Shown here one piece after another: positions 31,338-52,187 of a DNA stretch of 64,000 nt. Position 1 is the stretch's first letter; each line of letters begins with the position of its first letter. The notes beneath the pieces were generated by a model. That model saw only the letters and a list, made by a program, of their open reading frames with translations, was not told where the DNA came from and ran no database searches. The DNA is from Pseudofrankia sp. DC12 (GTDB lineage: Bacteria; Actinomycetota; Actinomycetes; Frankiales; Frankiaceae), in contig NZ_KQ031391.1 of the NCBI RefSeq assembly GCF_000966285.1, positions 3,321,208 through 3,385,207 of the forward strand. Direction: 5' to 3'. The position numbers and the translations under genes were made by a program.

Positions 31338-31410
31338 GGGGGCGTAGCTCAACTGGCAGAGCACTGCCTTTGCAAGGCAGGGGTTGGGAGTTCGAGTCTC
31401 CCCGTCTCCA
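31338..31410 (+). tRNA. tRNA-Ala (TGC)
   Basis: The cloverleaf can be drawn in full: acceptor GGGGGCG pairs with CGTCTCC and includes the G3:U70 pair that marks alanine tRNAs; the D stem is GCTC/GAGC; the anticodon stem is CTGCC/GGCAG around loop TTTGCAA (anticodon TGC); the T stem is GGGAG/CTCCC around TTCGAGT; the discriminator is A. CCA is not encoded. The 3' part from the anticodon loop onward doubles as the attachment site of element 1 and is repeated at 39007. Confidence 0.95.
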
Positions 31411-31412
31411 CC
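31369..31412 (+). repeat. attachment site, tRNA-proximal copy (element 1)
   Basis: 44 bases beginning TTTGCAAGGCAGGGG and ending CCGTCTCCACC, identical to 39007-39050. It starts in the tRNA-Ala anticodon loop and runs two bases past the tRNA 3' end. Confidence 0.92.
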
Positions 31413-31428
31413 CAGCACCACCAGGGCT

Positions 31429-32658
31429 TTAGCTCTCCTCCCCCTCGCCGATCAGCGGTGAAACAGGCTCGTCGCGTACGGATTCGCCCACGTCGGCATC
31501 GTCGTCCGCCGGCGGCTCGCCGAGAATCGCGTTCGCGATCAGGCCGGCCGCGTCCTTGTCCATGCCCGGGATGACGTGGCTGTAGAAGGCCAGCGTGAAC
31601 GCCACGCTCGCGTGACCGAGCCTCTCGGAGACCACCTTGGGGTGTACGCCGGCCTTGAGCGCGGCGGTGGCGTAGCTGTGCCGGACGTCGTGCAGTCGGA
31701 TCACGGGGAGCCCGGCCGCACGCGCGTGCTTCTGGAACCAGTCCGTGATCGTGTCCGGGTGGATCTCGCCGCCGTCCGGCCAGCAGAACAGAAGCTCGGT
31801 CGTGTGCTCGGCCGCCTCCCGCTCGGCGTCCCACTGCTCGACGTGGGCACGCAGCGCGGCCAGGGTCACGGGGTCGAGCACGAGCGGCCGGTACGCGCTG
31901 TCGGTCTTCTGCTCCCCGTCGACCGCCTTGTTGTCGACCACGATGCGCGGCCGGCTGGGCGACACTGTGCCCGCCTCAAGGTCGAGGTCGGGGCGGCGCA
32001 GTCCAGCGAGTGCGCCGCGGCGAAGTCCGGTCGTGATGACCAACAGGTACATAGCGAACAGCCGGTCACCCCGGATGTGCTTTACGAACGCGCGGAGCTG
32101 CTCCGGCGTCCAGATCGTTGGCGGCCGGCGTCCAACCTGCGGCTTGTTCGCGTCCGTGGCCGGGTTGCGAGGCAGGTAACCCCATTTCACGGCATCACCC
32201 AGGGCGCGATGCAGCACACGGTGCGCGGTGGAGACGCTGGCCGACGCGAGGCCCGCGGCCTGGCCCGTCCGCTGATGGCGTCGGCCTGCGGTGAGGAGAT
32301 GCGCGTACAACAGGCTTACGCGCACCGGGGTCAAGTCCTGGAGTGCCGTCATCCCGACAACCGGAATGATGTAGCTGTTGCAGTACGTCCGGTATTTGCT
32401 CCAGGTCACCGGTCGGATTGACGGCCTGGTCGCCTCCAGCCATTCCGCCAGAAACTCACTAACTGTGCGGCGAGACGGCGCTACTCGCCGGCCCGCCTCG
32501 TGCGAGGAGATCGATTCCCGCATTGCCCTCTCTGCTTCTTTGCGAGTCTTGAAACCGCTCTTGCCGGTCGTCCGTCGCTTGCCGGTGAGCGGGTCCGGGT
32601 CGAGATCGTGACGGTACTCCCAGACGCCATTGGCGCGCTTCCGCGCACTTCCCTTCAT
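31429..32658 (-). CDS. int: Tyrosine integrase of element 1
   Basis: Site-specific recombinase of 409 residues that would insert and, with Xis, excise the element at the tRNA-Ala site. It has an N-terminal AP2-like DNA-binding part (MKGSARKRANGVWEYRHDLDP), then a SAM-like core-binding domain, then the catalytic domain with Arg in TTGLRRGALAGL, HDVRHSYAT (HxxR) and LGHASVAFTLAFYSHV (final His and Tyr). All catalytic residues are present. ATG 32658 has GGAGGAG upstream. It is clearly homologous to the integrase of element 2 along its whole length although the two use different tRNA genes. The stop is 17 bases from the att repeat. Confidence 0.92.
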   Translation of the reverse strand: MKGSARKRANGVWEYRHDLDPDPLTGKRRTTGKSGFKTRKEAERAMRESISSHEAGRRVAPSRRTVSEFLAEWLEATRPSIRPVTWSKYRTYCNSYIIPVVGMTALQDLTPVRVSLLYAHLLTAGRRHQRTGQAAGLASASVSTAHRVLHRALGDAVKWGYLPRNPATDANKPQVGRRPPTIWTPEQLRAFVKHIRGDRLFAMYLLVITTGLRRGALAGLRRPDLDLEAGTVSPSRPRIVVDNKAVDGEQKTDSAYRPLVLDPVTLAALRAHVEQWDAEREAAEHTTELLFCWPDGGEIHPDTITDWFQKHARAAGLPVIRLHDVRHSYATAALKAGVHPKVVSERLGHASVAFTLAFYSHVIPGMDKDAAGLIANAILGEPPADDDADVGESVRDEPVSPLIGEGEES

Positions 32659-32748
32659 AGGAACTCCTCCGCTTTCAGAGTTTGCAGGGTTGCCTCAGAA
32701 GGCGGCGGACGGCGGTGATCCCGTCGCCCGCCGCCTTCTGGCGATTCT

Positions 32749-32940
32749 TTAGACAGACGTCGCGGTCAGGAGGTGGCGGATCTCGGCCGTAATGACGTAG
32801 ACCCGGCCGCCGAACCGCCTTGCCGGCAAGTCACCGCTGGCGGCGTACCGGTAGGCGGACGCGCGGGGAAGTCCCAGTAGCTTTGCGGCGCGGGGCACCG
32901 AGATAAGCGCGGGCAGAGCATTGATTTCGATGTCGGTCAT
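32749..32940 (-). CDS. xis: Excisionase (MerR/AlpA-type HTH)
   Basis: A 63-residue winged-helix protein of the HTH_17 type: ISVPRAAKLLGLPRASAYRYAASGDLPARRFGGRVYVI. It should bend att DNA and direct the integrase to excision. It lies 90 bases upstream of the integrase gene in the same direction, the usual AICE order. The protein is shorter than its counterpart in element 2 (116 residues), lacking the N-terminal helical extension, but the DNA-binding part is very similar. Confidence 0.85.
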   Translation of the reverse strand: MTDIEINALPALISVPRAAKLLGLPRASAYRYAASGDLPARRFGGRVYVITAEIRHLLTATSV

Positions 32941-32951
32941 CTCACCCGGAC

Positions 32952-33287
32952 CTATTCGTCGTCGCCGTCGTATGGGGGGTCGTCCGCTGGGTCGGCTTCA
33001 GGTAGCGCGTTGATCCACGCGTGCAGGACGGCGCGGGAGACGAGCCAACGGCCATTGCTGCCTCGCCGGCCGGGCATTTGGCCGGTGCTCATCCAGGCGA
33101 CGATTTCGGCGACGCTGGTCGAGAGTTTGTAGGCGACCTGTTCGACGGTGTAGAACGCCGGCTCACCGCTGGCTTGGACAGCGGCGGGACGGTCCCAGGG
33201 TGTGCCGGTCCGGCGGGTGCTGGGCCGCGCGCGGTTGATCGGGATGACCTTCGCCCATTCCGCCGGGCCGTCAGGGTGGTGGCTCAT
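32952..33287 (-). CDS. HTH_17-type DNA-binding protein
   Basis: A 111-residue protein starting at ATG 33287, whose ATGA overlaps the stop of the gene upstream. The C-terminal half carries a second excisionase-like HTH: FYTVEQVAYKLSTSVAEIVAWMSTGQMPGRRGSNGRWLVSR. The N-terminal 45 residues are basic and Pro-rich. It could be a regulator of excision or a replication accessory. Translational coupling with its neighbours suggests one early operon with xis. Confidence 0.65.
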   Translation of the reverse strand: MSHHPDGPAEWAKVIPINRARPSTRRTGTPWDRPAAVQASGEPAFYTVEQVAYKLSTSVAEIVAWMSTGQMPGRRGSNGRWLVSRAVLHAWINALPEADPADDPPYDGDDE

Positions 33288-33961
33288 GGAATACGCACCG
33301 TGCGGACGGTGGCCCACGGAGATTGCGGCACTTCCCCACGGCCTTCGTCGGCGGCGATACGGGCGAGGTGCATGGCGTTCTGGCGCTCGGGGGTGGTGCT
33401 GATCCGGGGCCATTCACAGCCGGTGGACCGGTACGGATCGGCCAACAGGCTGCCCAGGCGCGCGGCGTTGTGCGGGTCGTGGGGCGCCATGCTCGTGGCG
33501 ATCGTCGTCGCGCAGCAGGCGCACAGGCCGGTGTTCTTCTCGTAGACGTCGTGGTCGCATCTCGGGCCGGCGCAGACCGTCAGGTCCGCGACGGCCTTCC
33601 CCCGGCTGGCCGCGGCCGACGTCGGGCGAGGAACGGGACGTTCGGCCGCGAGTAGGTTGGCGACGGCCTGGCGGCAGCGGGCGACCCAGGCGGGCGGGTA
33701 GTCGGCGAGGCGGGCGATGACCTGGTCGAGGGCGGCCAGGCCGTCGACCGCGACGACGGTTTCGATGGTGTCGCGGACCCCGGCGGGAGTCGCGAGGTCG
33801 GCGGGGACGCCGCCGCAGACGAGTGCGGCGACCATCAGCGGTTCGGACAGGCCCACCCGTGCCCGCGAGCGGGTCACGGCCTGGCCGTGGTCGGGCTCGA
33901 TGTCCACGCGGCGGGCCGCGCGGCGCGGTCGGCGGCGGCTTAGCCGGGTCGGGGCGGTCAC
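33284..33961 (-). CDS. Uncharacterised element-1 protein with zinc-binding C-terminus
   Basis: GTG 33961 overlaps the upstream stop (GTGA), giving 225 residues. The N-terminal 20 are Arg-rich, the middle is helical (PLMVAALVCGGVPADLATPAG) and the C-terminal half has a Cys/His cluster CAGPRCDHD...GLCACC that looks like a zinc ribbon. No known family is recognised. It might be a replication or regulatory protein specific to this element type. It lies in the middle of a coupled leftward operon of three small genes. Confidence 0.55.
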   Translation of the reverse strand: MTAPTRLSRRRPRRAARRVDIEPDHGQAVTRSRARVGLSEPLMVAALVCGGVPADLATPAGVRDTIETVVAVDGLAALDQVIARLADYPPAWVARCRQAVANLLAAERPVPRPTSAAASRGKAVADLTVCAGPRCDHDVYEKNTGLCACCATTIATSMAPHDPHNAARLGSLLADPYRSTGCEWPRISTTPERQNAMHLARIAADEGRGEVPQSPWATVRTVRIP

Positions 33962-34404
33962 CGGTCGCCGTCCAGAGCGACGATGAGGCGCGGGCTGTGG
34001 CTGGCGAGCATGCCGGCGACGTGCCGGGCGCACCAGCGCCGCCGGGCCTGCCGTTCGGCCGTCCAGCCGTCCTGTCGGCTGCGGGGCTCAAGGTCATATT
34101 CGAAGACGGTGCGGGCCGCCCCCTGGACCACCCGCATCCCCCAGTAGTCCCGCAACCTGAGGATCTCCGAGGCGAGCGCGTTCACGGTGCCCAACTCGAC
34201 GCTGGTCTTTGTCGAGTGCATCGCCAACAGCGCGACCATCTCCCGCTCCGACAGACCGAACCGGGCCGTCACCGGGACCTGGACCGGCTCGACCGTTGCC
34301 CACGCCTCAGGTGTCGGCTCCAACGTCCGCGTGCCGGTGTTCCGCGCGGTCGGGGCGTTCGCGCGGCTGCGGGATCGCCGGACGGCGGTACTGTTCAACT
34401 GCAT
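33958..34404 (-). CDS. Uncharacterised first gene of the element-1 operon
   Basis: ATG 34404 behind AGAGGACG gives 148 residues; the longer upstream frame is dismissed because it lacks a ribosome site. The protein is basic at the N-terminus, with the helical segment RFGLSEREMVALLAMHSTKTSVELGTVNALASEIL and a C-terminal ERQARRRWCARHVAGMLASH. The following protein shows a similar short phrase (RVGLSEPLMVAALV), hinting at a common origin. No family is recognised. It is divergent from the TPR regulator gene, with a palindromic operator candidate between. Confidence 0.55.
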   Translation of the reverse strand: MQLNSTAVRRSRSRANAPTARNTGTRTLEPTPEAWATVEPVQVPVTARFGLSEREMVALLAMHSTKTSVELGTVNALASEILRLRDYWGMRVVQGAARTVFEYDLEPRSRQDGWTAERQARRRWCARHVAGMLASHSPRLIVALDGDR

Positions 34405-34481
34405 CTTTCGTCCTCTGAGCGGGGGAACTGGGTGCACTGGCCCCGGTGGGCGGCTACCCGCCGGGGCCTCTCTCGGAGGGA

Positions 34482-34504
34482 GAGTACTGACTGACTCAGT
34501 ACTC
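34482..34504. promoter_or_regulatory. Operator candidate GAGTACTGA-N5-TCAGTACTC
   Basis: Perfect 9-bp inverted repeat with a 5-base loop in the AT-richer gap between the leftward three-gene operon and the rightward TPR regulator. The dyad size fits a dimeric repressor controlling element induction, possibly the regulator encoded to its right. The gap also holds clustered GTGCA/TGCAC words near 34650-34675. Confidence 0.55.
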
Positions 34505-34701
34505 GTCAATCCCTGCCCACTGACGCGCGGGGGTAGTGCCACGTGCGCTCTGTGTGGTCCACTTGTGCAGGGCTTCGTCGGAGCTGGCATGGGTCCAAGT
34601 CAAGCGGCCGGCCTGGTAGTCGACCATGAACCGCCGATGCTCTACCAATGCACCGCCCGTGCATCACCAGTGCAGTTCACCGAGGATCGGGGCGCCTTCT
34701 G

Positions 34702-36108
34702 ATGGACGTCATCGACTCATGGACAGGCGCGAAGGCTGACACCTTGCGCGAGGCCCTGCGGATGTCCAATGAGAGCTTCGCCTCGCACCTCGGCGTTGCG
34801 GTCCGGACGGTGGCCAATTGGCGGGCACGGCCCGACCTAATTCCCAAGCCCTCTATTCAAGACGTACTTGATGCCGCATTAGATAAAGCACCGGAGCGGG
34901 CCAAGGATAAGTTCCTGCTCTTGCTTAGCCAACATAGCGACAGCTCCGAGGTGGACGCCCGCCCGGTCAGGGTCACAAACGTGCAGGACGACGCTGCCCT
35001 TCCTGCGGAATCGGCACTTTTGCTCCCGTGGACGGCTCACGATACACTTGATGTTGTCCGCGAACTGTCGGAAGGCGGGGGCGATGCCATGAATCGTCGG
35101 TCATTTTTGATTCTGTCCGGTACAGCTCTTACCACCCCCGCTCATGACTGGCTCATTGCACGTCCCGTCGATGAAACGATCGGAAGATCGGGCCGAGTGA
35201 TCGAACCGTCTTTCGTCGAGTACCTCGGCCAGATGACCGATAGCCTTCGGAAGATGGACGACAAGGTTGGCGGCGGATCGCTCATAAACGTCGTTCGCAG
35301 CCAAGCGGCCTACGTCCAAACGCTCTTGAGGGAAGGCCGCTACACCGATTCGGTGGGCCGCGACCTCTACGCCACCATGGCGGAGCTTCTGCGCCTTGCG
35401 GGCTGGCTCTCGTTCGACGCCGGCCGCCACGGTGAAGCTCAGCGCTTCTTCGTCGCCGCGCTTCGAGGCGCCCATACGGCCGGGGATCGCGCGCTCGGTG
35501 CAAACGTGCTGGGATTCATGAGCTGCCAGGCCAAGGACATCGGCCAATTCCGCGACGCAACAAGACTCGCGGATAGTGCGCGTTCCGGCTACGCGGACGG
35601 GAGTCCGACAGTGACGGCCATTCTCAACATGAGGGCTGCCCAGGCATACGCAAACGTTGACGACGTCACCGAGTCGCGGCGAGCCATCGACACCGCCCTT
35701 GCTGCGATGGGGGGTACTACACCGCAGCACGGCGAGCCCGCATGGTCCTACTGGCTTGACGATGCGCAGATCAATGAGCAGGTCGGTTACTGCTACATGC
35801 GCCTAGGCGACTGGCCGCGGGCACGGGAGCACCTACTGGCCGCCACCCAGGTCGAAGGTGTTGCGAACTCCCGAGAAGGCGTCTTGCGACAAGCGCTCCT
35901 GGCGGACACCTACGCACAGCAGGGCGAACCCGATACAGCCTGCGACATAGCTAGCCAGGCGATCGATGCCCTGTTGACTCAAGTCGATTCCGCACGCTGC
36001 GTCGGCCACATTCAGCGGGTGAAGGATCACTTGGAGCCCTTCGAGGGCCTCTCATGTGTCCAGGCATTCGGGGAGCGCGTCCGGCAGCTAGAAGCGCAAC
36101 CGGCTTAA
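34702..36108 (+). CDS. XRE-type HTH regulator with C-terminal TPR-like region
   Basis: Start ATG 34702 (MDVIDSWTGAKADTL) gives 468 residues. The HTH is LREALRMSNESFASHLGVAVRTVANWRARP (about 13-42). After a linker, MNRRSFLILSGTALTTP resembles a Tat motif but lies about 125 residues in, so it is probably not an exported signal. The C-terminal 300 residues are repeated helices (GDWPRAREHLLAAT, for example) typical of Streptomyces-type TPR regulators that bind signalling peptides or partners. Codon use is visibly more AT-rich than in the surrounding genes, suggesting separate acquisition. It probably controls the element through the dyad upstream. Confidence 0.75.
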   Translation: MDVIDSWTGAKADTLREALRMSNESFASHLGVAVRTVANWRARPDLIPKPSIQDVLDAALDKAPERAKDKFLLLLSQHSDSSEVDARPVRVTNVQDDAALPAESALLLPWTAHDTLDVVRELSEGGGDAMNRRSFLILSGTALTTPAHDWLIARPVDETIGRSGRVIEPSFVEYLGQMTDSLRKMDDKVGGGSLINVVRSQAAYVQTLLREGRYTDSVGRDLYATMAELLRLAGWLSFDAGRHGEAQRFFVAALRGAHTAGDRALGANVLGFMSCQAKDIGQFRDATRLADSARSGYADGSPTVTAILNMRAAQAYANVDDVTESRRAIDTALAAMGGTTPQHGEPAWSYWLDDAQINEQVGYCYMRLGDWPRAREHLLAATQVEGVANSREGVLRQALLADTYAQQGEPDTACDIASQAIDALLTQVDSARCVGHIQRVKDHLEPFEGLSCVQAFGERVRQLEAQPA

Positions 36109-36410
36109 TGCTCGCCTCGTGTCGGGTCGTCGGGCGACTTTTGGCCACCACCGGGCAGCCGGCCGCCGACCCCGACTCGAGTTCGAGCCTCGTGCCATTC
36201 CACGATGCGCGCCGGCCGCCACATGTGCGTTCGGCCGATCGTCTGGTCAGGCGCGGGCATCTGGCCGCGCTGGCGGTAGCTGCTTACGGTCCCGACCCGC
36301 ACACCGAGGTAGGCCGCGATGTCGGAAGTCGTCCACCATTCCGCCTCGGGGTCCGGGACGGTCCGCACCTGGTCCACTGCCACGATCAACGATCCTAACG
36401 TCTGATCCAC
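36105..36410 (-). CDS. AlpA/HTH_17-type DNA-binding protein
   Basis: About 101 residues from GTG 36410 (GTG 36377 and neighbouring codons are alternatives). The central part EWWTTSDIAAYLGVRVGTVSSYRQRGQMPAPDQTIGRTHMWRPARIVEWHEAR is a winged HTH as in excisionases and AlpA regulators. It overlaps the end of the TPR regulator gene by four bases on the opposite strand. It is the last gene before the 2.6-kb repeat array, so it is one candidate for a protein that binds those repeats, though nothing in the sequence proves this. Confidence 0.65.
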   Translation of the reverse strand: MDQTLGSLIVAVDQVRTVPDPEAEWWTTSDIAAYLGVRVGTVSSYRQRGQMPAPDQTIGRTHMWRPARIVEWHEARTRVGVGGRLPGGGQKSPDDPTRGEH

Positions 36411-36481
36411 CTACGCCACCGTGCCAACGCCGCGGCGAGCGAGGTTGCTCCCCAGTCTGCGCCACCCGGGATACCCCGGAA

Positions 36482-36588
36482 GGCGTTGACACGTTGACAA
36501 TCGGCCTTCTGCGCCCTGTTCCAGCAGGTCAAGCGGCATCTTTCGCTGTCAGCGGCCCCAGTTGACGCCCGCTGACAGCGTTGACACC
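36482..36588 (-). repeat. 107-bp repeat unit, family 1, copy a (inverted orientation)
   Basis: Read on the minus strand it starts GGTGTCAACGCTGTCAGC, has a middle with GACAGCGAAA and TTGACCTGCTGGAACAGGG, and ends TTGTCAACGTGTCAACGCC. It has the same length as the copies at 36608 and 38319 and is about 80 percent identical to the latter by eye. Confidence 0.85.
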
Positions 36589-36607
36589 GGCGGGCCGACC
36601 GGGCGGG

Positions 36608-36714
36608 GGTGTCAACGGTGTCAACGGCAGTCACCAAGTGATGCTGACGGGTGTCTCAGGGCTGTGACCTGCGGAAGCGGCGTCGTTGATGTTGGTTGTC
36701 AACGTGTCAACGCC
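36608..36714 (+). repeat. 107-bp repeat unit, family 1, copy b
   Basis: It starts with GGTGTCAAC twice in tandem, shares GTGACCTGC in the middle and ends TTGTCAACGTGTCAACGCC. The outer 19-20 bases are conserved with the other copies while the middle has diverged. It lies 20 bases from copy a in opposite orientation, so the two form a head-to-head pair. Confidence 0.85.
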
Positions 36715-37217
36715 TTTCCGGGCGCGCGGGCGGGTCGGGGCCTCGCGCGGAGCCCACGCCCGGCCAAAGGACAAGATCGGCCCTTCGGGGGCTCATCCCG
36801 TGGGCGCCTCCGGCGCCGCCGGCTGCCGCGGCGCCCCGGCCTGGCGGGCGCCCCGTACGCGCGTGCCTGTGGTTGCCTGGCCGCTCGGGACGTTGCCGGG
36901 GATGGAGGGGCCGCGCGCGGTGGCATGCGAAGTGGGGGGCACGGTGCCCGGCGGCGGGCACACGACGCCTCCGGCACCCGGTTTCCCAGCCTCGCGGGTG
37001 GTATCTGGGCAGGTCGAGGTGGTTGTGCCTGTCGCTGTGACGTGGCCCGGCGGCGGTGTTCGTTACCGCGTGAGCGCGACGACCGGCACGCCAGCGAGCA
37101 CACCACTGGTCGCGTCCTCTCACGGGGTCGAGCGGCGCGTCGTGTCGCCTCCCGACTGGGGTCGCCTGGCACGCACGCCCTACTCGGGCTACGTCCCGCC
37201 ACGTGACGGTGCGTAAG

Positions 37218-37325
37218 ACTCCGGAAACTCCGGAAACTCCGGCGGCTCGCCGGCCGGGTGCGCGGCGGCGGGGACACTACGCGCACCCCTACGCGCGCGA
37301 GGGCGCCAGCCGGAGTTTCCGGAGT
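37218..37325 (+). repeat. Covarying-arm unit, family 2, copy A
   Basis: The left arm is ACTCCGGAA in near-threefold tandem (37218-37242) and the right arm is CCGGAGTTTCCGGAGT (37310-37325), its exact 16-base complement. Between them a 33-bp core (37270-37302) carries CTACGCGC twice. The core is shared with copies B and C; the arms are not. Confidence 0.88.
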
Positions 37326-37571
37326 TCGCGACGACCGCAATCGGTGGCGATCCGTTACCAGTGGCCGGCTGCCGGCCCGTCGCGTCACGCAGGCGTGACG
37401 TGTCGCGCCCTGGCCGGCGGGGTCGCGTCCCGCCGGGCGGACCTGGGGCCGACGGCGGCGAGCTCGCCGACGCGGGCCGCCCATCGGTTGGCGGTCACCG
37501 GCCCCGCATCCCGCTCGCCGCCACGCGAGGCGGCGGCGCGGTGTGGTCGGTGGCGGCGGCCGGAGCGCAAG

Positions 37572-37678
37572 GGCCGGAAAGGCCGGAAAGGCCGGCGGCA
37601 GGCGCGAGGGCCTCCTGGGGAGGGGTCACTACGCGCGGGCCTACGCGCGCGAGGCATCCGACCGGCCTTTCCGGCCTT
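37572..37678 (+). repeat. Covarying-arm unit, family 2, copy B
   Basis: The left arm is GGCCGGAAA in tandem (37572-37595) and the right arm is CCGGCCTTTCCGGCCTT (37662-37678), complementary over 17 bases. Core 37622-37654 again carries CTACGCGC twice. The spacing from the left arm to the core (26) and from the core to the right arm (7) nearly equals copy A. Confidence 0.88.
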
Positions 37679-37872
37679 CCCTCGGCCCGCGCGGGCCGCT
37701 CATCGGCTCCGGCGGGCCGCGGCGCTTCCAGCCGGCGTGCGACCCGTCGCGCCGGCCGGCCCGCGCGACGTTTTCCTCCTCCGAGCGTGACCCGTCGCCC
37801 GTGGCCGCAGACGACGTGTCGACTCCGGCCCTGACGGACCCATCGGGAATTTCTCTGTGGCGCCGGGGGAAC

Positions 37873-38076
37873 ATCTCCGCAACCCCGCAACCCCGCAAAA
37901 TAGGTTCTGACCTGCGGTCTTAGGTGCGGAGATGTACTCAGTCTATCTCCGCAAACGGGGGTCTAACCCCGCAAAAGTGCGGGGTTGCGGAGATGGAGGT
38001 TCCTAGATCATTCTACCCCCGCAGGGTATTTGTGCTGGTCAAGGGGTCATTTGCGGGGTTGCGGGGTTGCGGAGAT
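37873..38076 (+). repeat. Cluster of GCAACCCC/ATCTCCGCAA repeats
   Basis: At 37873 ATCTCCGC is followed by AACCCCGC in tandem. Complementary words (GCGGGGTT, TGCGGAGAT) occur at about 37925, 37978-37995 and 38052-38076, and direct words again at 37945 and 37966. A GACCTGCGG segment at 37909-37917 matches the core of family 1 copy b. The whole can fold into several alternative stems. Confidence 0.75.
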
Positions 38077-38168
38077 GGTTTGGAGGGTCCGAGGGTCGCG
38101 CGGTCTCACGCCTAGCCATCCCCGCCCCCGGCCAGCCCCCGGGGTCCGGGTGACCAGTTACAGCGAGT

Positions 38169-38281
38169 GAAACTCTCCAAGCTCTACAGACTCTCCTCGT
38201 CCCAGCGGCCAGCTGGCTCGGTAGGGGTCACTACGCGCACCCCTACGCGCGCGGGGCGTCGAGGAGGCCTTGGAGAGTTTC
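38169..38281 (+). repeat. Covarying-arm unit, family 2, copy C
   Basis: The left arm GAAACTCTCCAAG (38169-38181) and right arm CTTGGAGAGTTTC (38269-38281) are exact complements, and an inner pair CTCCTCG/CGAGGAG (38193-38199, 38260-38266) extends the stem. Core 38224-38256 is nearly identical to that of copies A and B, while the arm sequence is unrelated to theirs. Confidence 0.88.
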
Positions 38282-38318
38282 CCGAGCCCCCGATCCGGCG
38301 GCGGTGGGTAACCCGGAC

Positions 38319-38425
38319 GGCTGTCAACGCTGTCACCAGGCGTCAACCAGGCACGTTGACAGCGAAATATGGTCTCTGACCTGCTGGAACAGGGGGCAGC
38401 AGGCCGATTGTCAACGTGTCAACGC
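38319..38425 (+). repeat. 107-bp repeat unit, family 1, copy c
   Basis: It starts GGCTGTCAACGCTGTCACC, has ACGTTGACAGCGAAA and CTGACCTGCTGGAACAGGG in the middle and ends GATTGTCAACGTGTCAACGC. It aligns end to end with copy a in the opposite orientation, 1.7 kb away. Confidence 0.85.
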
Positions 38426-38464
38426 ACTCCCGCCATTCGCCGGCACCGCCCTGCCGCCCACGCA

Positions 38465-38502
38465 CCCTGTTTCAGCCGCTCAACGACACGGCTGAAACAG
38501 GG
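38465..38502. repeat. CCCTGTTTCAGCCG inverted repeat
   Basis: CCCTGTTTCAGCCG (38465-38478) and its exact complement (38489-38502) form a 14-bp stem with a 10-base loop. The same 14 bases occur once in element 2 at 45227, and a variant (CCCTGTTCCAGC) is in family 1 copies a and c on the strand opposite their reading. Confidence 0.85.
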
Positions 38503-39006
38503 GCGGCTAAGCCGAGGCCACCACCGGCACCTTGCCCCGACCTGCCGGGCAGCCTACGGCCATTGCAGCGGCCTTCACGCTGCCCTGGGGTCGAGCCCGC
38601 CCCCGATAGACCGACGGCGCGGCCGGCCCTTAGGCCCAGTCGGAGAGATGCCCCCCCGGCCATTGCCTGCCCCAACAGGAGGCTGGCGGATATCGGAACC
38701 CCGACGGCGGCCAGGCGGCGCCGGGGACGTGCACGCCGCCCCCGCGGTGACGGGCGCGCGCCAGGCGCCGGGGGCATCTCCCTGTCGGACCGCCGGCCGC
38801 AGCAGGCGCATGCCAAGGCCGACGGCAGCGTTGGCCGGCCTGGAGATGAGCCCCGAAGGGTCGGCACTCCAAGGAGGCGGCGCGTACGAATCCGCGTACG
38901 AGACGCCCCGCGCCAGGGTGGACGCGCTGAGACAGGTGGGAGCGCGGAACTCCCCTCACCAGGATGGCTGAGATCAAATGGAAGTGGTGAGACAGGCGTC
39001 ATTCAG

Positions 39007-39050
39007 TTTGCAAGGCAGGGGTTGGGAGTTCGAGTCTCCCCGTCTCCACC
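39007..39050 (+). repeat. attachment site, distal copy (element 1)
   Basis: 44-bp perfect copy of the 3' part of tRNA-Ala plus two bases, marking the right end of element 1. It lacks the 5' half of the tRNA, so it is not a gene. Confidence 0.92.
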
Positions 39051-39147
39051 ACCTAGCGCACGCTGGTTGCGGCAGGTAAGTGCCCCGCAGCCGCCGAGGA
39101 GTGGCGCGGGGCTACGAGCGTCGGCATCACCGCACGCCAACCGATCT

Positions 39148-39293
39148 CCGCGTTCCGCGGAACGCGGGCCAGCGACCAGGCTCGTATTGCCAGCGCCGCC
39201 GCGCTAGCCGGTCCCGGCGTTCCGCGGAACGCAGACGACGGTCCCCGCGGCACGGCCGCGCGCCAACCGATCTCCGCGTTCCGCGGAACGCGG
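39148..39293. repeat. Three palindromes CCGCGTTCCGCGGAACGCGG
   Basis: The 20-bp dyad is perfect at 39148-39167 and 39274-39293; a 16-bp core copy is at 39217-39232. The first and third are preceded by the same phrase GCCAACCGATCT. Spacing is irregular (about 67 and 59 bases), so this is not a CRISPR array. They lie in the non-coding remains beside the broken phosphotransferase gene. Confidence 0.8.
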
Positions 39294-39309
39294 ACCCAGC
39301 TGGCGAGGA

Positions 39310-45736: not shown

Positions 45737-46054
45737 ATGTTCGGATTGGTGGTCCGGTTCGCGCTGAGGCCGGGCGCGGCGGCCGGGTTTGACCGGTTGG
45801 TCGCCGAGACGGTGCCGGAGATTGTGGCGCTCGAACCTGGCACGCAGGTCTACGCCACGCACGGTGTGGAGGGAGACCCGGATGCTCGGGTCTTCTACGA
45901 GTTGTACCGAGACCGGGAGGCGTTCGATGAGCACGAGCGTCAGGAGCACGTTCGGCGGTTCCTCGCGGCGCGTGAGGAGTTCCTCGCGGGTCCGCCGCGA
46001 GTCGAGTTCCTCTCTCTGATCGACGCCAAGGGCACGCCCGGCGGCGCGTCGTGA
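45737..46054 (+). CDS. ABM-family (antibiotic biosynthesis monooxygenase-like) protein
   Basis: A 105-residue ferredoxin-like fold protein: MFGLVVRFALRPGAAAGFDRL, then VYELYRD-type FYELYRDREAFDEHERQEHVRRFL, typical of quinol monooxygenase YgiN-like small dimers. ATG 45737 has AAGGGAGGC upstream. The stop overlaps the start of the XRE regulator by four bases (GTGA), so the two are coupled. In an AICE such a protein could serve as a sensor partner of the regulator; catalysis cannot be judged from sequence. Confidence 0.8.
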   Translation: MFGLVVRFALRPGAAAGFDRLVAETVPEIVALEPGTQVYATHGVEGDPDARVFYELYRDREAFDEHERQEHVRRFLAAREEFLAGPPRVEFLSLIDAKGTPGGAS

Positions 46055-47265
46055 GCGAGGCACCGCCGACGCTGGGCGACCGTGTCGCGTACCACCGGAA
46101 ACTGCGCGGGCTGTCTCAGGTCGAGCTGGGCCGGCTGATCGGCCGGTCGGAAGGATGGGTCTCGCAGGTCGAGCGCGGCGTACGCAAGATCGACCGGATG
46201 TCGGTGCTGGAGTCGCTCGCGGAGACGCTGAATGTGCCGGTCGCCGAGCTGGCGCCGACCGCTCCAGTTGCTCCCACGGCCGAGTCTGCCGCGTGGTGGT
46301 GGCCGCTGAGGCTGGCGATCACTGGTCACCCGGCGTTGGCCGCGCTGGTGGCCCCGGGACGGACCGAGGACGACACGACCGAGGCCAGGGCGCGAGAGCG
46401 GGTCGACGGCGCGTGGGCTCTAGTCCATGCGTCGCACTACTCCGAAGCCGTACCGGCACTCGCGGATCTGATCGGCGACCTGGAGCACGCGGCGCGACTT
46501 GCGCCCCCAGCGGAGCGCGCCGGTATCGCGGCGGCATTGTCGAGCGCCTACCAGGCCGCGGGCGCCCTGTTCGCGAAGGCCGGCGACACGGAGGCGGGCT
46601 GGGTAGCGGCCGACCGTGCGCTGTTCGCAGCCGAGCGGGCTGGCGATCCAGCGTTGGTCGCGGCCAGTCAGCACCGGCTGGCGCTGACCTTGCTGGGCGC
46701 TGGCCGCCTCGAACAAGCCCGGCACGCGGCGACGATCGGCGCGACCGTGCTGCGAGCGAACGCGACGGGCCGCGACGTCGCTGTCACTGCGGTACTAGGC
46801 GCGCTGCACCTGGTCCAAGCGGTCGCGGCCGCGCGGGCCGGCGACCGGACCGGCGCTCGCGCGTTGATCGCCGAGACCGAGGTGCTCGCGGATGCGGTCG
46901 GTCCTGGCCGCAACGACTACAACACCGAGTTCGGCCCAGCAAACGTCGCCATGCACGCGGTCGCGATCGCGGTGGAGCTCGGCGACGCGGGCGAAGCGCT
47001 GGACCGCGCGTCTCGCATCGACGTCTCGGGCCTCTCGCCCGAGCGGCGAGCGCGGTTCTTGGTCGACGTCGCCCGGGCGCACGCGCAGCGCCGCGACCGC
47101 AGAGAGGCAGTGGCCTCGCTACTCGAAGCCGAGCAGATCGCGCCGGAGCAGATCCGCGACCACGGGCGCGTGCGCACGCTCGTACGGGATCTCCTGCAAG
47201 GCGCGGACCGCCCGGCCGAGGAGGAGCTTCGCGGCCTGGCCGAACGGTGTGGCGTACCCGCGTAG
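46051..47265 (+). CDS. XRE-family HTH regulator with TPR-like C-terminus
   Basis: A 404-residue regulator. The HTH at residues 8-60 (LGDRVAYHRKLRGLSQVELGRLIGRSEGWVSQVERG) is a textbook XRE domain. The remaining 330 residues are Ala-rich helical repeats, probably TPR-like, that could sense a ligand or partner. It is translationally coupled to the ABM-like gene and followed by a hairpin (47270-47288), making a two-gene regulatory unit at the head of the conjugation module. It is related in architecture, though not obviously in sequence, to the TPR regulator of element 1. Confidence 0.82.
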   Translation: MSEAPPTLGDRVAYHRKLRGLSQVELGRLIGRSEGWVSQVERGVRKIDRMSVLESLAETLNVPVAELAPTAPVAPTAESAAWWWPLRLAITGHPALAALVAPGRTEDDTTEARARERVDGAWALVHASHYSEAVPALADLIGDLEHAARLAPPAERAGIAAALSSAYQAAGALFAKAGDTEAGWVAADRALFAAERAGDPALVAASQHRLALTLLGAGRLEQARHAATIGATVLRANATGRDVAVTAVLGALHLVQAVAAARAGDRTGARALIAETEVLADAVGPGRNDYNTEFGPANVAMHAVAIAVELGDAGEALDRASRIDVSGLSPERRARFLVDVARAHAQRRDRREAVASLLEAEQIAPEQIRDHGRVRTLVRDLLQGADRPAEEELRGLAERCGVPA

Positions 47266-47269
47266 CTAG

Positions 47270-47288
47270 GCCGAACAAAAAGTTCGGC
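47270..47288 (+). terminator. GCCGAAC-AAAAA-GTTCGGC hairpin
   Basis: A 7-bp stem with a 5-A loop immediately after the XRE gene stop and 44 bases before the whiB-like frame. It may terminate the regulatory unit or serve as a regulator site. Confidence 0.5.
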
Positions 47289-47331
47289 TACCCCCTAGAC
47301 GACACTGCAAGTTCGACCCCATACTTCGGGT

Positions 47332-48039
47332 GTGGGTTGGTGGCGGCAGTCACTGGCCCGCAACATAAGCGGCCCCGCGGCCGGTGTTCGCAGCACCGGC
47401 CCGGGGCCTGGGCACCCGACCATGTGGGGGTCGTGCACCTTGGCTCAGTATGGCTCGTCCGACGGCTGGCGTGGTGACGCTGCCTGCCTCGGCACTGATC
47501 TCGTTCTCTGGTCCGAACCGGGCGCCCCGTCCGCCGAGGCCGCGCGGCTGTGCCGTGACTGCCCGGTGCGTCGGGAGTGCGTCACGGAGGATCTGCCGGC
47601 CCGGTGGCCGGCTGGTGTCCGCGCTGGTCTGGCTGAGGATGTCCGTGAGCCGCTGCACGCGGCCTACGTCCCGTGGCGGGCCGCGATCGACCGCCGGCAC
47701 ACGGCGCTGCTGCGCCAGGCCGCCCGGACCAACGACCGGGCCGCACGTGGCCTGATCCGCGACCTGGCCGCCGCGCTGGTCGCCGAGGCCGACGCGCTGA
47801 CCGGCTACCTGGTCGCGTTCGTCGTCCACGCGGACGACGCCACATACGAGACGGCCCGTCTCGTGTACCTGACCGAGCTGGCCGGCCGCCTCGCCGCCGA
47901 GGCCGCCGCCGCGACCGAGGCCACCACACCCGCGATCGAGCGGACCCGCCCGGCGCTGTTCGCCGCCGCCCACCAGGTCGCCGACCTCGCCGCCCCGTCG
48001 ACTCCGCCTGTCCCGTCGTCGCTGGCGGGTGCGGCATGA
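47332..48039 (+). CDS. WhiB-like iron-sulfur regulator with helical C-terminal extension
   Basis: WhiB proteins hold a [4Fe-4S] cluster and act as redox-sensitive transcription factors in actinobacteria. Four Cys are placed as expected: DAACLGTDLVLW, then CRDCPVRREC (C-x2-C-x5-C). The turn GVRAGLAEDVRE corresponds to the G[VI]WGG motif, degenerate here. Normal WhiBs are 80-130 residues; this one has about 110 extra helical residues ending in PSSLAGAA. ATG 47422 (MWGSCTLAQYG) is an alternative start. The stop overlaps the next start (ATGA), and that next protein ends in the same tail. Confidence 0.75.
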   Translation: MGWWRQSLARNISGPAAGVRSTGPGPGHPTMWGSCTLAQYGSSDGWRGDAACLGTDLVLWSEPGAPSAEAARLCRDCPVRRECVTEDLPARWPAGVRAGLAEDVREPLHAAYVPWRAAIDRRHTALLRQAARTNDRAARGLIRDLAAALVAEADALTGYLVAFVVHADDATYETARLVYLTELAGRLAAEAAAATEATTPAIERTRPALFAAAHQVADLAAPSTPPVPSSLAGAA

Positions 48040-48563
48040 GCTTCGAGGACCTGACGCCGGACGAGCTGGATGCGGCTCGCGTCGAGCTGTTCCGCACCGT
48101 CGGCTCGGTCGTGGACTCGCCCCGCGACGACGCCATGCGGGCCCTGCGTTACCGCGCGGCTCTGGGAAACCTGGCCGATGCGGTCAACCTGCACCTGTCG
48201 TTCCCCGACAGTGCGTGGACGCCGCGCCGGGTCCGTGAGGGCCTGGCGATGGCCGCCGCGATCGACGCCGACGAGCCCGGCCGGGTCTCGCTCGCGATCT
48301 GGATGGCCGGTCCCGGCAGCGCCGGCCGCTACGGCACGCCAGAGGAGCGCCGCGCCCGTCTCACCGAGCTGCGCGCCGCCAAGGCCGACGACCTCACCCG
48401 CGCTCAGCGCCGCCTGGCCGACGCCCCGGCCGACGACGACGTGTGGCCCGTCTGCGACCTGTGGGCCGCCCGGGTCGCGACCCTCACCGACGAACTCGCC
48501 CGCATCGACGCCGCCCTCACCCCCGACTCGTCTGTTCCGTCGTCGCTGGCAGGTGCCGCATGA
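48036..48563 (+). CDS. Uncharacterised AICE protein, coupled to whiB-like and DUF2637 genes
   Basis: A 175-residue helical protein (MSFEDLTPDELDAARVELFRTVG) with ATGA overlaps at both ends, so it is translated in lockstep with its neighbours. It contains SLAIWMAGPGSAGRYG and a Trp-rich segment VWPVCDLWAARVATLTDEL, and it ends PSSLAGAA, exactly as the preceding WhiB-like protein does. The repeated tail corresponds to a repeated DNA stretch at both gene junctions. No family is recognised; a role in transfer regulation is possible from position. Confidence 0.6.
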   Translation: MSFEDLTPDELDAARVELFRTVGSVVDSPRDDAMRALRYRAALGNLADAVNLHLSFPDSAWTPRRVREGLAMAAAIDADEPGRVSLAIWMAGPGSAGRYGTPEERRARLTELRAAKADDLTRAQRRLADAPADDDVWPVCDLWAARVATLTDELARIDAALTPDSSVPSSLAGAA

Positions 48564-49426
48564 CCACGCCCGTTCTCACCATGCCCGCGCCCGATGACGA
48601 CCCGCGCGGCCTGGACCTGGCCGCCGTGCCGGTCATCGCCCCGGTGGCGGCTGTCGTGTCGTCGGCGGAGGACAAGCTGCGCCGGTTGCGGCGCTTGCAG
48701 TGGGGTGTGCGCGCCGCGCTCGTCCTCGGGGTCGCCGCATCGATCGCGGCGAACATGTTGCACGCCCAGCCCTCGATCGTGGGCCGGGCGATCTCCGCAT
48801 GGTCACCGGTGGCTCTGCTGATCACGGTGGAGCTGATCTCGCGGGTGCCGGTGCACCGCCGGGCGCTGGCCTACGTCGGCCGGGTGGCGATGGCCGCCGT
48901 AGCGCTGATCGCCGCCTACGTCTCCTACTTCCACATGGTGTCCGTGGCGCTGCGCTACGGCGAGACGCCGGTGTCGGCGCACCTGTTGCCGCTGTCGGTG
49001 GACGGCCTGGTGGTCGTCGCGTCGATCGCGCTGTTGGAGGTCGGCGGCCAGATCCGCGCCGCCCTCACCACCGCCCCGGCGGCCGTGGCACCGGTGCCAC
49101 CCGCTGACGCGCCACCCGCCCCGGCTCCCTCGGTGGTACCGGTGCCGGTCCGCCCGGCGACCTCGGCCGGTACCGGTGCCACCCGGCCGCGCGGCACCGC
49201 TGCCAGCCGTGCCCGTGGCACCGGTGCCACCCGCCGGCCGGCACGGTCGGGCCGTCACACGCTCGCCGAGCTACTCGGCCCGATCCCTCCGGATGACCCG
49301 CGTTCGGACCGGCAGCTCGCCGCCGAGCTGGGACCGGCCGCCGGGCTGACCCCGGCGACGGCGCGCCGCTACCTCGCCGAGATCCGTAACAAGCCCGCCG
49401 CTGCTGCGGCGATGGGAGGTGTCTGA
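48560..49426 (+). CDS. DUF2637 (SpdB-like) membrane protein
   Basis: Conjugation-associated membrane protein of 288 residues, related to the Spd/DUF2637 proteins encoded next to TraB in actinomycete elements, which aid spread between mycelial compartments. Four predicted helices cover about residues 46-150 (AALVLGVAASIAANMLHA and AMAAVALIAAYVSYFHMVSV among them), followed by LPLSVDGLVVVASIALLEVG. The C-terminal 110 residues are a basic Pro/Ala/Arg-Gly tail with repeated RGTAASRARGTGATR, probably DNA- or membrane-interacting. The start overlaps upstream (ATGA), and the end shares one base with traB (TGATG). Confidence 0.82.
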   Translation: MTTPVLTMPAPDDDPRGLDLAAVPVIAPVAAVVSSAEDKLRRLRRLQWGVRAALVLGVAASIAANMLHAQPSIVGRAISAWSPVALLITVELISRVPVHRRALAYVGRVAMAAVALIAAYVSYFHMVSVALRYGETPVSAHLLPLSVDGLVVVASIALLEVGGQIRAALTTAPAAVAPVPPADAPPAPAPSVVPVPVRPATSAGTGATRPRGTAASRARGTGATRRPARSGRHTLAELLGPIPPDDPRSDRQLAAELGPAAGLTPATARRYLAEIRNKPAAAAAMGGV

Positions 49427-51732
49427 TGCCCGAGCACGACCCGATCGACGCACTGACCCCGCCGGGGGGTGTGGTCGTGCCCGGCCCGTGGACCCCGGAT
49501 GTGCCCGCCCAGGGCGCGCCGCTGTACGTCGCCGACGCCCAGGGTGTTTCTGACTGGGCCGCCGTGGCTGCGGTCGCCGGCCGCTATCGGGACACGGCGC
49601 CGCCGGATGCGTCGACGCCGTCCGCCGACGACTCGTCGCCCGAAGCGGCTGACACGAGCACGGTCACGGCCCCCGCTGTCGCGGCCGGCACCCGTCCGGC
49701 CGCCGTCCCTCGCGGGGTGGTGCTCGAAGGTGTCGTGCTGCCTTCCCGGGGGGTGGAGGTCCGCCCGGTCGTTCCGGGATGGATGCGGTCTGCGTCGTCG
49801 CGTCGGGCGGTGGCCGGGTGGTGGCTGGGTGTGCAGTGGTACAAGGTCCGTTTCCATGCCTTCCGCGCCCCGGTGTACGTCGGCCGGGTGGCGTGGCGGA
49901 CCCCGAAGGGCGCGTTCCGCCTGGTGTCCCGGCTGCTGGTGTGGGCGCTGGACATCCGGGCGGACGGGATGGAGCAGGCCCTGTCCACCGGTGGCCGGAC
50001 CGATGCCGCGGACTTCGTCCGGGTGCGGGAGGACCGGGCGGCCCGGGTCAAGGCCCGCCTGGTCGTCCTGGCCCTCGGCCTGATCGCGACGGCGGTCGCG
50101 GCCACGATCGTGGTCACGACCTTCGGTGTCCTGGCGCGGACCCTGATCGGGGCCGGTGTCGTCGCGGGGCTGACGTGGCTGGGCTCGGACCCGGGCCGGC
50201 CGTTGGTGGCCGGGGTGATGGCGGCGTCCGGGAAGTACCGGGAACTGACCGACGCCATCGTCATGCGGGCGCTGCGGGCGGCCGGGCTGGGCGGGGCGCC
50301 GCCGCGGCTGGACAAGGACGGCCACGAACTGTCCGAGGACACCCGCCCGACCCTGGCCGCGCCGATCTCCCGGTCGGCGAACGGGCGCGGCTACGAGGTG
50401 GTGGTCGACCTGCCCTACGGCAAGACCGCCGGGGACGCCGCCGACGCGGTCGACAAGCTGGCGTCCGGGCTGGACGTCGACACCGCGCAGGTGTTCCCCG
50501 AACCGGTGGCCGGCCGGTCGCGTCGGGTGTCGCTGTACGTCGCCGACGAGGACCCGATGACGCTGCCCCCGACCCGGTCCCCGCTGGCCCGCCTGCCCAA
50601 GGTCAGTGTCTGGGACCCCCAGCCGATGGCCCGCACCCCGGTCGGGCACGCCGTGACCCCGTCCCTGCTGTTCAACAGCTTCCTGGTCGGCGCCGTCCCG
50701 CGGGCGGGCAAGTCGTTCGCCGCGAAGGTGCTGGTCGCCCCGGGGGTGTTGGACCCGTTCTGCGACCTGACGGCCATCGACTGCAAGGGCGGGCGGGACT
50801 GGCTGCCGACCGCTCAGGTCGCGGTCGACTTCTCCGCCGGTGACGAGGAGGAAGACCTCCTGCGGGCGCTGTCGATCCTGGAACGGCGCCGCAGCGAGGC
50901 GCGGGAACGCCTCGCGTCGTTCCGGACCCTGACGGCCAAGGAGATGCCCGAGGACAAGCTGACCCGGGAACTCGCCGACGCCGGGATGCGCGCCCATCTG
51001 ATCGTCGTGGACGAGTTGCAGAACCTGCTCAAGGCCACCAACCGCGACATCCGCAAGGCCGCCCTGGACGTGCTGGTGTGGCTGGCCAAGACCGCCCCGG
51101 CCGCCGGCTACACGCTGGTCGCGATCACGCAGCGGCCGGCCGCGGACGTGATCCCGGCCGACTTCCGCGACGTCACCACGGTCCGCATCGCGCTGCGGAC
51201 CAAGACCCGGCAAGGCTCCGACGCGATCCTCGGCGCGGACATCTCGGCCACCGGCTACCGCACCGACCGGTTCATGGAGCACCACAAGGGCGCCGCGATC
51301 ATCGGCGGTGTCCCCACCCCCCGCGGCGGTGACCTGCAAGTCGTGCGGACCGACCTGCTCACCCCCGCCGAGTTCGACCAAGCCTGCAAGATCGGCCGGC
51401 AGCGTCGTCTCGACGCCGGCACTTTGATCGGCGCCGCCGCCGGCGAGGACCGCCCGATCGAGGTCACCGTCACCGTGCTCGAAGACGTCGCCGCCGTCTG
51501 GCCCGGCGACGACCCGAAAGCCCAGGCCGCCTCGATCCTCGCCCGCCTCCAGGACATCTACCCGGCCCGCTACACCGGCATGGACGAAGGGTCACTCACG
51601 AAGGCCCTCAAGCCCGACGGGATCACCCCCGTCCAGGTCAACAAGGGCGGCCGCAACCGCAACGGCTACGCCCTGGCCGACATCCGCCGCGCCCTACGCG
51701 CCCGCCGGACCGACGACGACGACACCGACTAA
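49426..51732 (+). CDS. traB: TraB/FtsK-type conjugative DNA translocase
   Basis: The 768-residue pump that moves double-stranded element DNA into the recipient in Streptomyces-type conjugation. N-terminal residues to about 210 are Pro/Ala-rich, then two membrane helices (about 213-252, LVVLALGLIATAVAATIVVT and following). The motor domain has Walker A GAVPRAGKSFAA (about 421-432) and Walker B LIVVDELQN (about 524-532), with an AITQRPAADVIP sensor segment. A C-terminal winged-helix-like part (VNKGGRNRNGYALADIRRAL) should read 8-bp recognition sequences. Three CTAGACCC words directly downstream are candidates for those. Confidence 0.9.
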   Translation: MPEHDPIDALTPPGGVVVPGPWTPDVPAQGAPLYVADAQGVSDWAAVAAVAGRYRDTAPPDASTPSADDSSPEAADTSTVTAPAVAAGTRPAAVPRGVVLEGVVLPSRGVEVRPVVPGWMRSASSRRAVAGWWLGVQWYKVRFHAFRAPVYVGRVAWRTPKGAFRLVSRLLVWALDIRADGMEQALSTGGRTDAADFVRVREDRAARVKARLVVLALGLIATAVAATIVVTTFGVLARTLIGAGVVAGLTWLGSDPGRPLVAGVMAASGKYRELTDAIVMRALRAAGLGGAPPRLDKDGHELSEDTRPTLAAPISRSANGRGYEVVVDLPYGKTAGDAADAVDKLASGLDVDTAQVFPEPVAGRSRRVSLYVADEDPMTLPPTRSPLARLPKVSVWDPQPMARTPVGHAVTPSLLFNSFLVGAVPRAGKSFAAKVLVAPGVLDPFCDLTAIDCKGGRDWLPTAQVAVDFSAGDEEEDLLRALSILERRRSEARERLASFRTLTAKEMPEDKLTRELADAGMRAHLIVVDELQNLLKATNRDIRKAALDVLVWLAKTAPAAGYTLVAITQRPAADVIPADFRDVTTVRIALRTKTRQGSDAILGADISATGYRTDRFMEHHKGAAIIGGVPTPRGGDLQVVRTDLLTPAEFDQACKIGRQRRLDAGTLIGAAAGEDRPIEVTVTVLEDVAAVWPGDDPKAQAASILARLQDIYPARYTGMDEGSLTKALKPDGITPVQVNKGGRNRNGYALADIRRALRARRTDDDDTD

Positions 51733-51781
51733 CCCCCTCAGGATCGTCACTTTACGTAGCCGTCAGGTGGGGGTCGTGAGG

Positions 51782-51870
51782 CTAGACCCGTAGAGGCGGA
51801 CGGCTTCTAACCCTAGAGGCACCTCTAGACCCCCGCCCGGCACCCCACCAGCGCTCTAGGTCCTAGACCC
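51782..51870 (+). repeat. Three CTAGACCC direct repeats after traB (clt candidate)
   Basis: CTAGACCC occurs at 51782, 51825 and 51863 in one orientation, with CCTAGAGG and CTCTAGG words interspersed. In Streptomyces plasmids TraB binds short repeated 8-mers at the clt locus next to traB. The location, word size and repetition fit, but binding is not shown. The 51733-51911 gap has no gene. Confidence 0.5.
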
Positions 51871-51911
51871 CACCTGCCCTTTCGGTGCCCGAACCCGCTC
51901 CAGGAGCCCTC

Positions 51912-52151
51912 ATGCCTCCCGTCCTGGCCCTACTCCTACTCCTGGCCGTGGTGACGCTCGGTTACCTCGTGGCGTGTCGGTTCTGGCCCTACGCCGCGTG
52001 CCCACGGTGCTCCGGCGCCGGGAAACGCCGCTCCCTGTCGGGCCGTGCGTGGCGCACCTGCCACCGCTGCCACGGCTCCGGCGCCCGCCTCCGCATCGGC
52101 CGGCGCATCTCCAACGCCCTCACCCAACAGCACCGCCGAGCCCGCCGCTAA
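51912..52151 (+). CDS. Small membrane protein with DnaJ-like zinc ribbon
   Basis: A 79-residue protein behind CAGGAGCC. The N-terminal helix MPPVLALLLLLAVVTLGYLV precedes CPRCSGAGKRR...CHRCHGSGAR, two CxxCxGxG motifs as in DnaJ zinc centres, and a basic tail. It could be a membrane-bound zinc protein of the transfer apparatus; similar small genes are common after traB in AICEs. Function is unknown. Confidence 0.65.
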   Translation: MPPVLALLLLLAVVTLGYLVACRFWPYAACPRCSGAGKRRSLSGRAWRTCHRCHGSGARLRIGRRISNALTQQHRRARR

Positions 52152-52187
52152 CCCACGCCAACCCACACCCCTGAACGGAGAAGACCG

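Follow-up and report, generated by a model that had tools for sequence, protein, structure and literature searches.

The clt loci of TraB-type plasmids are described, in the available passages of PMC3583192, as arrays of 5-9 bp repeats with inverted repeats, and the claim made in an earlier sequence-only reading of the DNA analysed here, that no named bacterial repeat family has such a design, was therefore too strong. According to the same passages, the clt loci of pWTY27, pJV1, pIJ101 and pSVH1 are read by FtsK-like Tra proteins, the repeats measuring 7-9 bp in pWTY27 and pJV1, while the 8-bp motifs of pSVH1 are stated to be read by helix alpha3; in pWTY27, clt has been mapped after the tra gene and is bound by the Tra protein (PMC3583192). 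Each of these Streptomyces loci lies on an element with its own tra gene, whereas the locus described here comprises three loci with different repeats, in a strict 3+2 arrangement around a common core, on one element without a TraB match.

Several other systems are comparable in part. Four integrated Frankia elements that lack tra or rep genes (Fean1457, Fcci0407, Fcci1144 and FeuI5809) were suggested to be remnants or mobilizable, and the available text of PMC3218068 mentions no cis-acting transfer loci in them. For the AICEs of Streptomyces, the relevant passages of PMC9513070 treat the use of other elements' TraB as an open question and describe no clt for pSAM2, while the accessible portion of PMC5704250 notes the mechanism of TraB but no satellites of the kind considered below. 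Mobilizable plasmids with several oriTs likewise carry several transfer origins, which are thought to widen the helper range (extracts of PMC11389934 and PMC7755788), but they depend on relaxase-based single-strand transfer and not on the double-strand transfer of TraB. Finally, iteron origins beside primase or helicase genes likewise have inverted arms of tandem 8-9-mers, placed where the motor gene ends at its 3' side, and RepA of pWTY27 is described as binding an inverted repeat of ca. 105 bp made of 7-8-bp iterons (PMC3583192, same passages).

A 7.7-kb integrated element with three repeat units

The window, i.e. the whole 64-kb stretch of DNA analysed, contains a 7.7-kb element (31369-39050) integrated in tRNA-Ala(TGC), the tRNA gene itself lying at 31338-31412. 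The features of the element are as follows, G003 being a second genome treated below and G028 a genome of the same genus.

31369..31412, forward strand: attL, the 3' part of tRNA-Ala(TGC), a 44-bp exact direct repeat of 39007-39050
31429..32658, reverse strand: tyrosine integrase (Pfam Phage_integrase, 4.3e-16)
32952..33413, reverse strand: HTH_17 protein, probable excisionase (Pfam HTH_17, 2.9e-07; 43% identity to the Xis of the G003 element over 68 aa)
33641..34254, reverse strand: apparently eroded region with fragments like a 223-aa protein of the G003 element (best tblastn match 42% over 91 aa, 2.7e-10)
34648..36108, forward strand: NsdA-family regulator with TPR repeats (NCBIfam NF053720, 1.2e-91; 63% identity to a G003-element protein)
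36105..36410, reverse strand: second HTH_17 protein, Xis-like (Pfam HTH_17, 5.4e-06; 77% DNA identity to the G003 element over 182 bp)
36480..36716, no strand: GTTGACA array, putatively origin-like, seven copies of CGTTGACA in both orientations
37218-37326: unit A, inside a non-coding stretch
37219..37242, forward strand: left arm of A, three copies of CTCCGG with spacer AAA
37270..37302, forward strand: core of A, 28/33 positions identical across A, B and C
37310..37326, forward strand: right arm of A, two inverted copies, 17/17 identical to G028
37572-37678: unit B, inside a non-coding stretch
37572..37595, forward strand: left arm of B, three copies of GGCCGG with spacer AAA
37622..37654, forward strand: core of B, 34/36 identical to the G028 core
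37662..37678, forward strand: right arm of B, two inverted copies
37872..38077, no strand: AACCCCGC array, putatively origin-like, 28-nt exact inverted arms and six copies of ACCCCGCA
38169-38281: unit C, inside a non-coding stretch
38169..38196, forward strand: left arm of C, with CTCTCC, CTCTAC and CTCTCC
38224..38256, forward strand: core of C, 33 bp
38263..38281, forward strand: right arm of C, two inverted copies, one of them degenerate
38322..38425, reverse strand: partial inverted copy of the GTTGACA array, 86% identical to 36483-36586
38465..38502, no strand: palindrome CCCTGTTTCAGCCG / CGGCTGAAACAGGG, 14-nt exact arms with 10 nt between
39007..39050, forward strand: attR, a 44-bp exact repeat of attL

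The element has the att repeats, integrase and excisionase of a satellite and no TraB or Rep match of its own, and its second HTH_17 protein (36105-36410), the candidate binding partner in the sequence-only reading, reaches the Pfam cut-off. In tblastn searches of the element at E 1e-3, none of 11 TraB queries gave a match, and the only match to 3 replication proteins was a 23-residue remnant of a DUF3987 C-terminus, contained in the GTTGACA array. The ORFs of the eroded region have no Pfam match, and other proteins there may still be a TraB or Rep. The approximately 2.6 kb that hold the repeats (36411-39006) contain no ORF of at least 70 aa with the codon signature used, and the non-coding region had no BLAST match among plasmids and phages. 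Neither the att-flanked element nor the two inverted 8-mer arrays (GTTGACA and AACCCCGC) had figured in the sequence-only reading.

That reading had proposed three units with a common 33-bp core carrying CTACGCGC twice, and both points are borne out: the cores start at 37270 (A), 37622 (B) and 38224 (C), 28 of the 33 positions are identical in all three, and CTACGCGC is present twice in each. The left arm of a unit consists of three copies of a 9-mer, made up of a hexamer and an A-rich triplet, and the right arm of two inverted copies, some copies being degenerate, mostly in unit C. The hexamer is CTCCGG in A, GGCCGG in B and CTCTCC in C, and CACTACG, as read from the sequence, lies 56 bp from the first left hexamer in A, 55 in B and 56 in C. 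The left arm was also rightly said to be an exact reverse complement of the right, the complementary stretches measuring 16 and 18 nt in A, 15 and 17 nt in B and 13 nt in C; however, although pairing arms are kept, three copies on the left face two on the right and the units are not one-to-one hairpins. The description of the flanking arms as differing entirely does not hold, as 18/24 positions are shared between the left arms of A and B, 13/24 between those of A and C and 7/24 between those of B and C. Between units the A-rich triplet spacer and the 9-bp period are constant, and change falls mainly in the hexamer. Tandem 9-mers had been recognised in A and B, correctly, but the arms of C are tandem too, if degenerate (CTCTCC-AAG-CTCTAC-AGA-CTCTCC).

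A strict detector, defined as tandem hexamer pairs facing inverted tandem pairs, found A and B in the 64-kb window and missed C. When run on third-order Markov copies of the window, 20 in number and 1.28 Mb in total, the same detector returned no unit, nor did it with periods 8 and 9 on Markov copies of the element amounting to 3.07 Mb.

Homologous units in transfer operons and in a second satellite

The exact A arm is present in 2 of the 35 genomes of the family, namely its own and G028, where the unit lies inside the transfer region, 1.65 kb upstream of a TraB-like gene. The arms of A and of the G028 unit are identical (24/24 and 17/17, together 41/41), but the linker between left arm and core agrees at only 10/23 positions and the core at 30/36; the core nearest to that of G028 is instead that of unit B (34/36). 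Since A has the arms of G028 next to a diverged linker while B has the nearest core, arms and core seem to be kept as separate modules. The G028 element resembles that of the window in its A-identical arms and in the same kind of core but differs in possessing a TraB-like translocase, a DUF3987 rep gene and just one such unit; a large ORF beyond rep occupies the place of the integrase, and a GTTGACA-type array is found at the rep gene in addition to the unit in the transfer region. The TraB-like protein shows a weak C-terminal winged-helix match (HTH_29, below the cut-off), and its P-loop was identified by eye.

The closest TraB homologue, 48% identical to the G028 protein, is in G019, with weak matches to NCBIfam plasmid_TraB (3.8e-9) and Pfam FtsK_SpoIIIE (6e-4), both below the cut-off. 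A unit with the hexamer GTGCGG and a related core lies at the orthologous place, and model R1, built without G019, recovers it at E 3.4e-10. In both genomes the unit is thus beside a TraB gene, inside the same operon and upstream of traB, not at its 3' end, whereas the window element, which carries the homologous units, has no TraB match. Homologues with non-complementary arms, named in the sequence-only reading as evidence that would speak against it, were not encountered in these two closest TraB homologues.

The pattern of a constant core with exchanged arms, also proposed in that reading, recurs in another genus, in G003, which is presumably Frankia casuarinae CcI3 and was recovered by model R1 at E 4.6e-7. 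The G003 element is 10.2 kb long, bounded by 49-bp repeats at tRNA-Gly, and encodes an integrase, Xis, an NsdA-like protein (63% identical to that of the window element) and a 545-aa protein in which a P-loop was identified by eye and which has no Pfam, NCBIfam or PHROG match; no TraB match was found in the element. Two 3+2 units with different hexamers, GAGTCC with spacer CAA and CTCCCG with spacer AAA, surround a common core, GTGACCAGCRCCAAC, which is unlike the core of the window. The element also has a longer third array, with the hexamer CCGTCC and nearly the core of these two units, which overlaps the 545-aa gene at its end. From its map position, the G003 element may be Fcci1144. The two other NsdA-like relatives, in G023 and G024, have no unit.

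The searches behind these results covered the 35 family genomes, which are also those of the order-wide search. Matches to model R1 at E 1 occurred in 30 of the 35, of which G028, G019 and G003 were kept (E 4.6e-7 or better) and the rest set aside, four of them after inspection; in the genome that holds the window, model R1 gave no further unit. In 118 class genomes at E 0.003, the only matches outside the family, G205 and G162, have no tandem arms and were taken as chance, and the exact core occurs in five stretches of genome contigs, none with complementary tandem arms and all with flanks that read as coding. B or C arms did not turn up at any TraB element, whether in the fetched loci, in viral contigs (B arms) or with model R1 in the 35 and 118 genomes. 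A search of 396 phylum genomes with a TraB profile gave no match and is uninformative, because only two candidates were scored per listed genome; the G028 TraB returned four stretches in viral contigs, none confirmed, and two distant records in plasmids.

Candidate readers of the arms and competing explanations

Units A, B and C are rather likely to be clt-type loading sites for FtsK-like TraB translocases, carried by a mobilizable satellite. TraB would recognise the 9-mers of the arms through its C-terminal winged-helix domain, their phase would be set by the A-rich spacer together with the 9-bp period, and the shared core would be the part that is independent of which TraB is used. With a conjugative element encoding a matching TraB in the cell, the satellite would excise with its own Int and Xis, the helper's TraB would load on the matching unit and the element would enter the recipient as double-stranded DNA, so that three units would correspond to three helper specificities. 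Of the possibilities raised in the sequence-only reading, namely a folded RNA, a single-stranded DNA structure or a set of addressable binding sites, the last is the one favoured here.

Inverted arrays of the same form are found at other TraB genes. Strict units were detected in only 4 of 28 fetched TraB-like loci (G028, G019 and one each of G013 and G018), a fifth, L120, being a weak case with period 11; in G013 and G018 the strict inverted 9-mer arrays start at the end of traB. Twelve plasmid loci were fetched, chosen from 44 records with a TraB match and including pWTY27, and short repeats were seen by eye just after traB in 11 of them, largely as direct repeats. Ranked against the other windows of the same locus, the repeats after traB fall in the top 5.3% in 8 of the 12 loci, at 8.5-12.8% in three and not at all in L141. 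In an alignment of 18 TraB C-termini, the type of putative recognition helix corresponds to the class of repeat: [SG]R[PST]W is present in all ten TraB proteins with GACA repeats and RS[VT][MI]SRLL in all three Frankiaceae TraB proteins with GTGC repeats, with other helices in G019 and G028. As the repeats were assigned to classes by eye and the proteins are not independent of one another, being related, this link is support and not proof; pSN22 and G018:C146 have other repeats but still R-x-W, and L141 has the common helix without repeats after traB. Against the clt reading stand the small number of strict units, the position of those in G028 and G019 upstream of traB, the absence of units from G023 and G024, the failure to find B or C arms at a TraB element in the sets searched, and the core itself, for which no clear counterpart emerged at other clt loci: in a comparison with 17 TraB-adjacent loci only L135 (2/65) and L138 (1/66) stand out.

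The main rival is that the units are replication origins, with tandem iterons on which the C-terminal winged helix of a primase or helicase loads, a core serving as an unwinding or deformable element, and several helper Reps. It comes to mind because similar arrays follow primase/helicase genes: the same architecture occurs right after primase-type genes in the phage-like contigs L244 and L194/L279, an array overlaps the end of a DUF3631 gene in a Streptomyces longwoodensis plasmid (L133), GTTGACA-type arrays lie at the ends of DUF3987 genes in G028 and G032, and the third G003 array, with nearly the core of its two companion units, overlaps the 545-aa gene, whose product is ATPase-like. The phage cases, however, come from 160 viral stretches fetched for chosen arm or 8-mer patterns and are a biased sample; four of these had a unit with extended arms and none had a TraB or rep match. 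An origin at A, B or C is nevertheless unlikely, although it deserves to be taken seriously, since the A-type unit lies inside transfer operons in G028 and G019 while G028 already has another array, GTTGACA, at its rep gene. No helicase gene was recognised beside the A-type unit in either operon, and no replication-initiator or helicase gene accompanies A, B or C in the window element, where there is no helicase match beyond the 23-residue remnant. For the GTTGACA and AACCCCGC arrays the same likeness to arrays following primase/helicase genes leads to the opposite reading, and these are probably origins that would serve the replication proteins of helpers. Relatives of the GTTGACA array overlap the 3' end of the DUF3987 replication genes of G028 and G032, and five copies of the AACCCCGC array's 16-mer are found around the 3' coding end of a phage primase gene, some of them within it.

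That the units act as operators or in maintenance, recognised for instance by a regulator of the element, a partition protein or a protein of the Spd type, or that they are what remains, in decay, of several conjugative elements since lost, is improbable. SpdA2 is described, in the passages available of PMC4170104, as binding palindromes inside spdA2 and affecting plasmid stability, and the GTTGACA array does hold the remnant of a rep gene, but a single regulator would need one repeat whereas each unit has another repeat around one core, and decay would not have left the arms exact between A and G028 while the linker diverged. Structured RNAs or single-stranded DNA hairpins, selected for pairing, are more improbable still, although the arms have changed in sequence without losing their pairing (89.7% of cells paired, 6/17 pairs changed on both sides and 0/500 shuffles as high, in an alignment of four sequences) and single-strand folding, with DNA parameters, gives z scores of -5.3, -4.1 and -4.2 for A, B and C. 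Inverted protein sites would give the same pairing counts and any inverted pair of sites folds strongly. Three copies facing two leave one over, and the plasmid arrays after traB are largely direct repeats; Rfam at the gathering score returned two tRNAs and no other family in the window.

Beyond a clt function of the units, a bolder interpretation, tentative and with less than an even chance of being right, is that the motorless satellite works as a keyring, in which one transfer locus was copied and its arms were replaced whole, making it loadable by several helper motors. As part of this interpretation, inward-facing tandem 9-bp sites would serve both conjugative TraB proteins and the replication helicases of phages and plasmids, and since both kinds of motor have a C-terminal winged helix and share this grammar, arms could be exchanged between transfer and replication. 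With no recognisable motor and three landing sites, one of which matches a related TraB-type element, the element may ride several helpers. Individual clt loci have been described before, but a full-text literature search, judged on titles, the starts of abstracts and passages and with most subscription papers outside its scope, found no TraB-less element with several clt loci. If the units function as the clt-type sites proposed, the arms of a satellite would reveal its helper range, arm hexamers and TraB helices together would form a recognition code open to testing, elements now called remnants would be active passengers, and the 3+2 inverted 9-mer rule would offer a way to search for clt loci.

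Further repeats in the window and in related genomes

An alternating purine-pyrimidine tract in the core, considered as a Z-DNA or unwinding signal, was rejected as such, being not rare for A-C (70-74 of about 2000). It is longest in G028 (22 nt; 0/572 windows as long), ranks at 1.2% or less in 4 of 16 TraB-adjacent loci and is absent from two G003 units. In L244 (1058-1171) and L194 (7084-7218), the inverted tandem 9-mer arrays that follow primase-type genes surround alternating purine-pyrimidine tracts. A near-identical stem-loop of about 90 nt (CGCCGGCCCGCATCATGGCCCCCGGACC...GGCGGGCCGGCG) is present in several Frankiaceae (L069, L070 and L072, from G007, G005 and G011) and gives weak R1 matches.

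A second integrative element lies 7 kb downstream in the window (46051-58096), with an XRE regulator, a DUF2637 protein, a TraB-like protein (49426-51732), RepSA, an integrase and tRNA-Ile; none of its repeats corresponds to A, B or C. Palindromes of GTGGCACCGGTGCCAC are found at 49085-49230, within the DUF2637 gene that immediately precedes the gene for the TraB-like protein, and a tRNA-Ala(GGC) called there by ARAGORN is without Rfam support and probably false, arising from the palindromes. In three genomes, TraB-like genes are preceded at a distance of some 3-5 kb by clusters of GTCTCG-type palindromes (L060 15918-16092, L061 5369-5494 and L057 6688-6789), which are reminiscent of the sps sites in spdA2 as presented in the available part of PMC4170104. 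In G009, 13 and 10 copies of CCGGTCCG lie upstream of a TraB-like gene (L062, 6701-7000 and 8501-8800). Elsewhere in the window, three copies of GCGTTCCGCGGAACGC are located just outside attR (39147-39294), and four direct repeats of ATCCTGAG, 27 bp apart, at 17234-17322.
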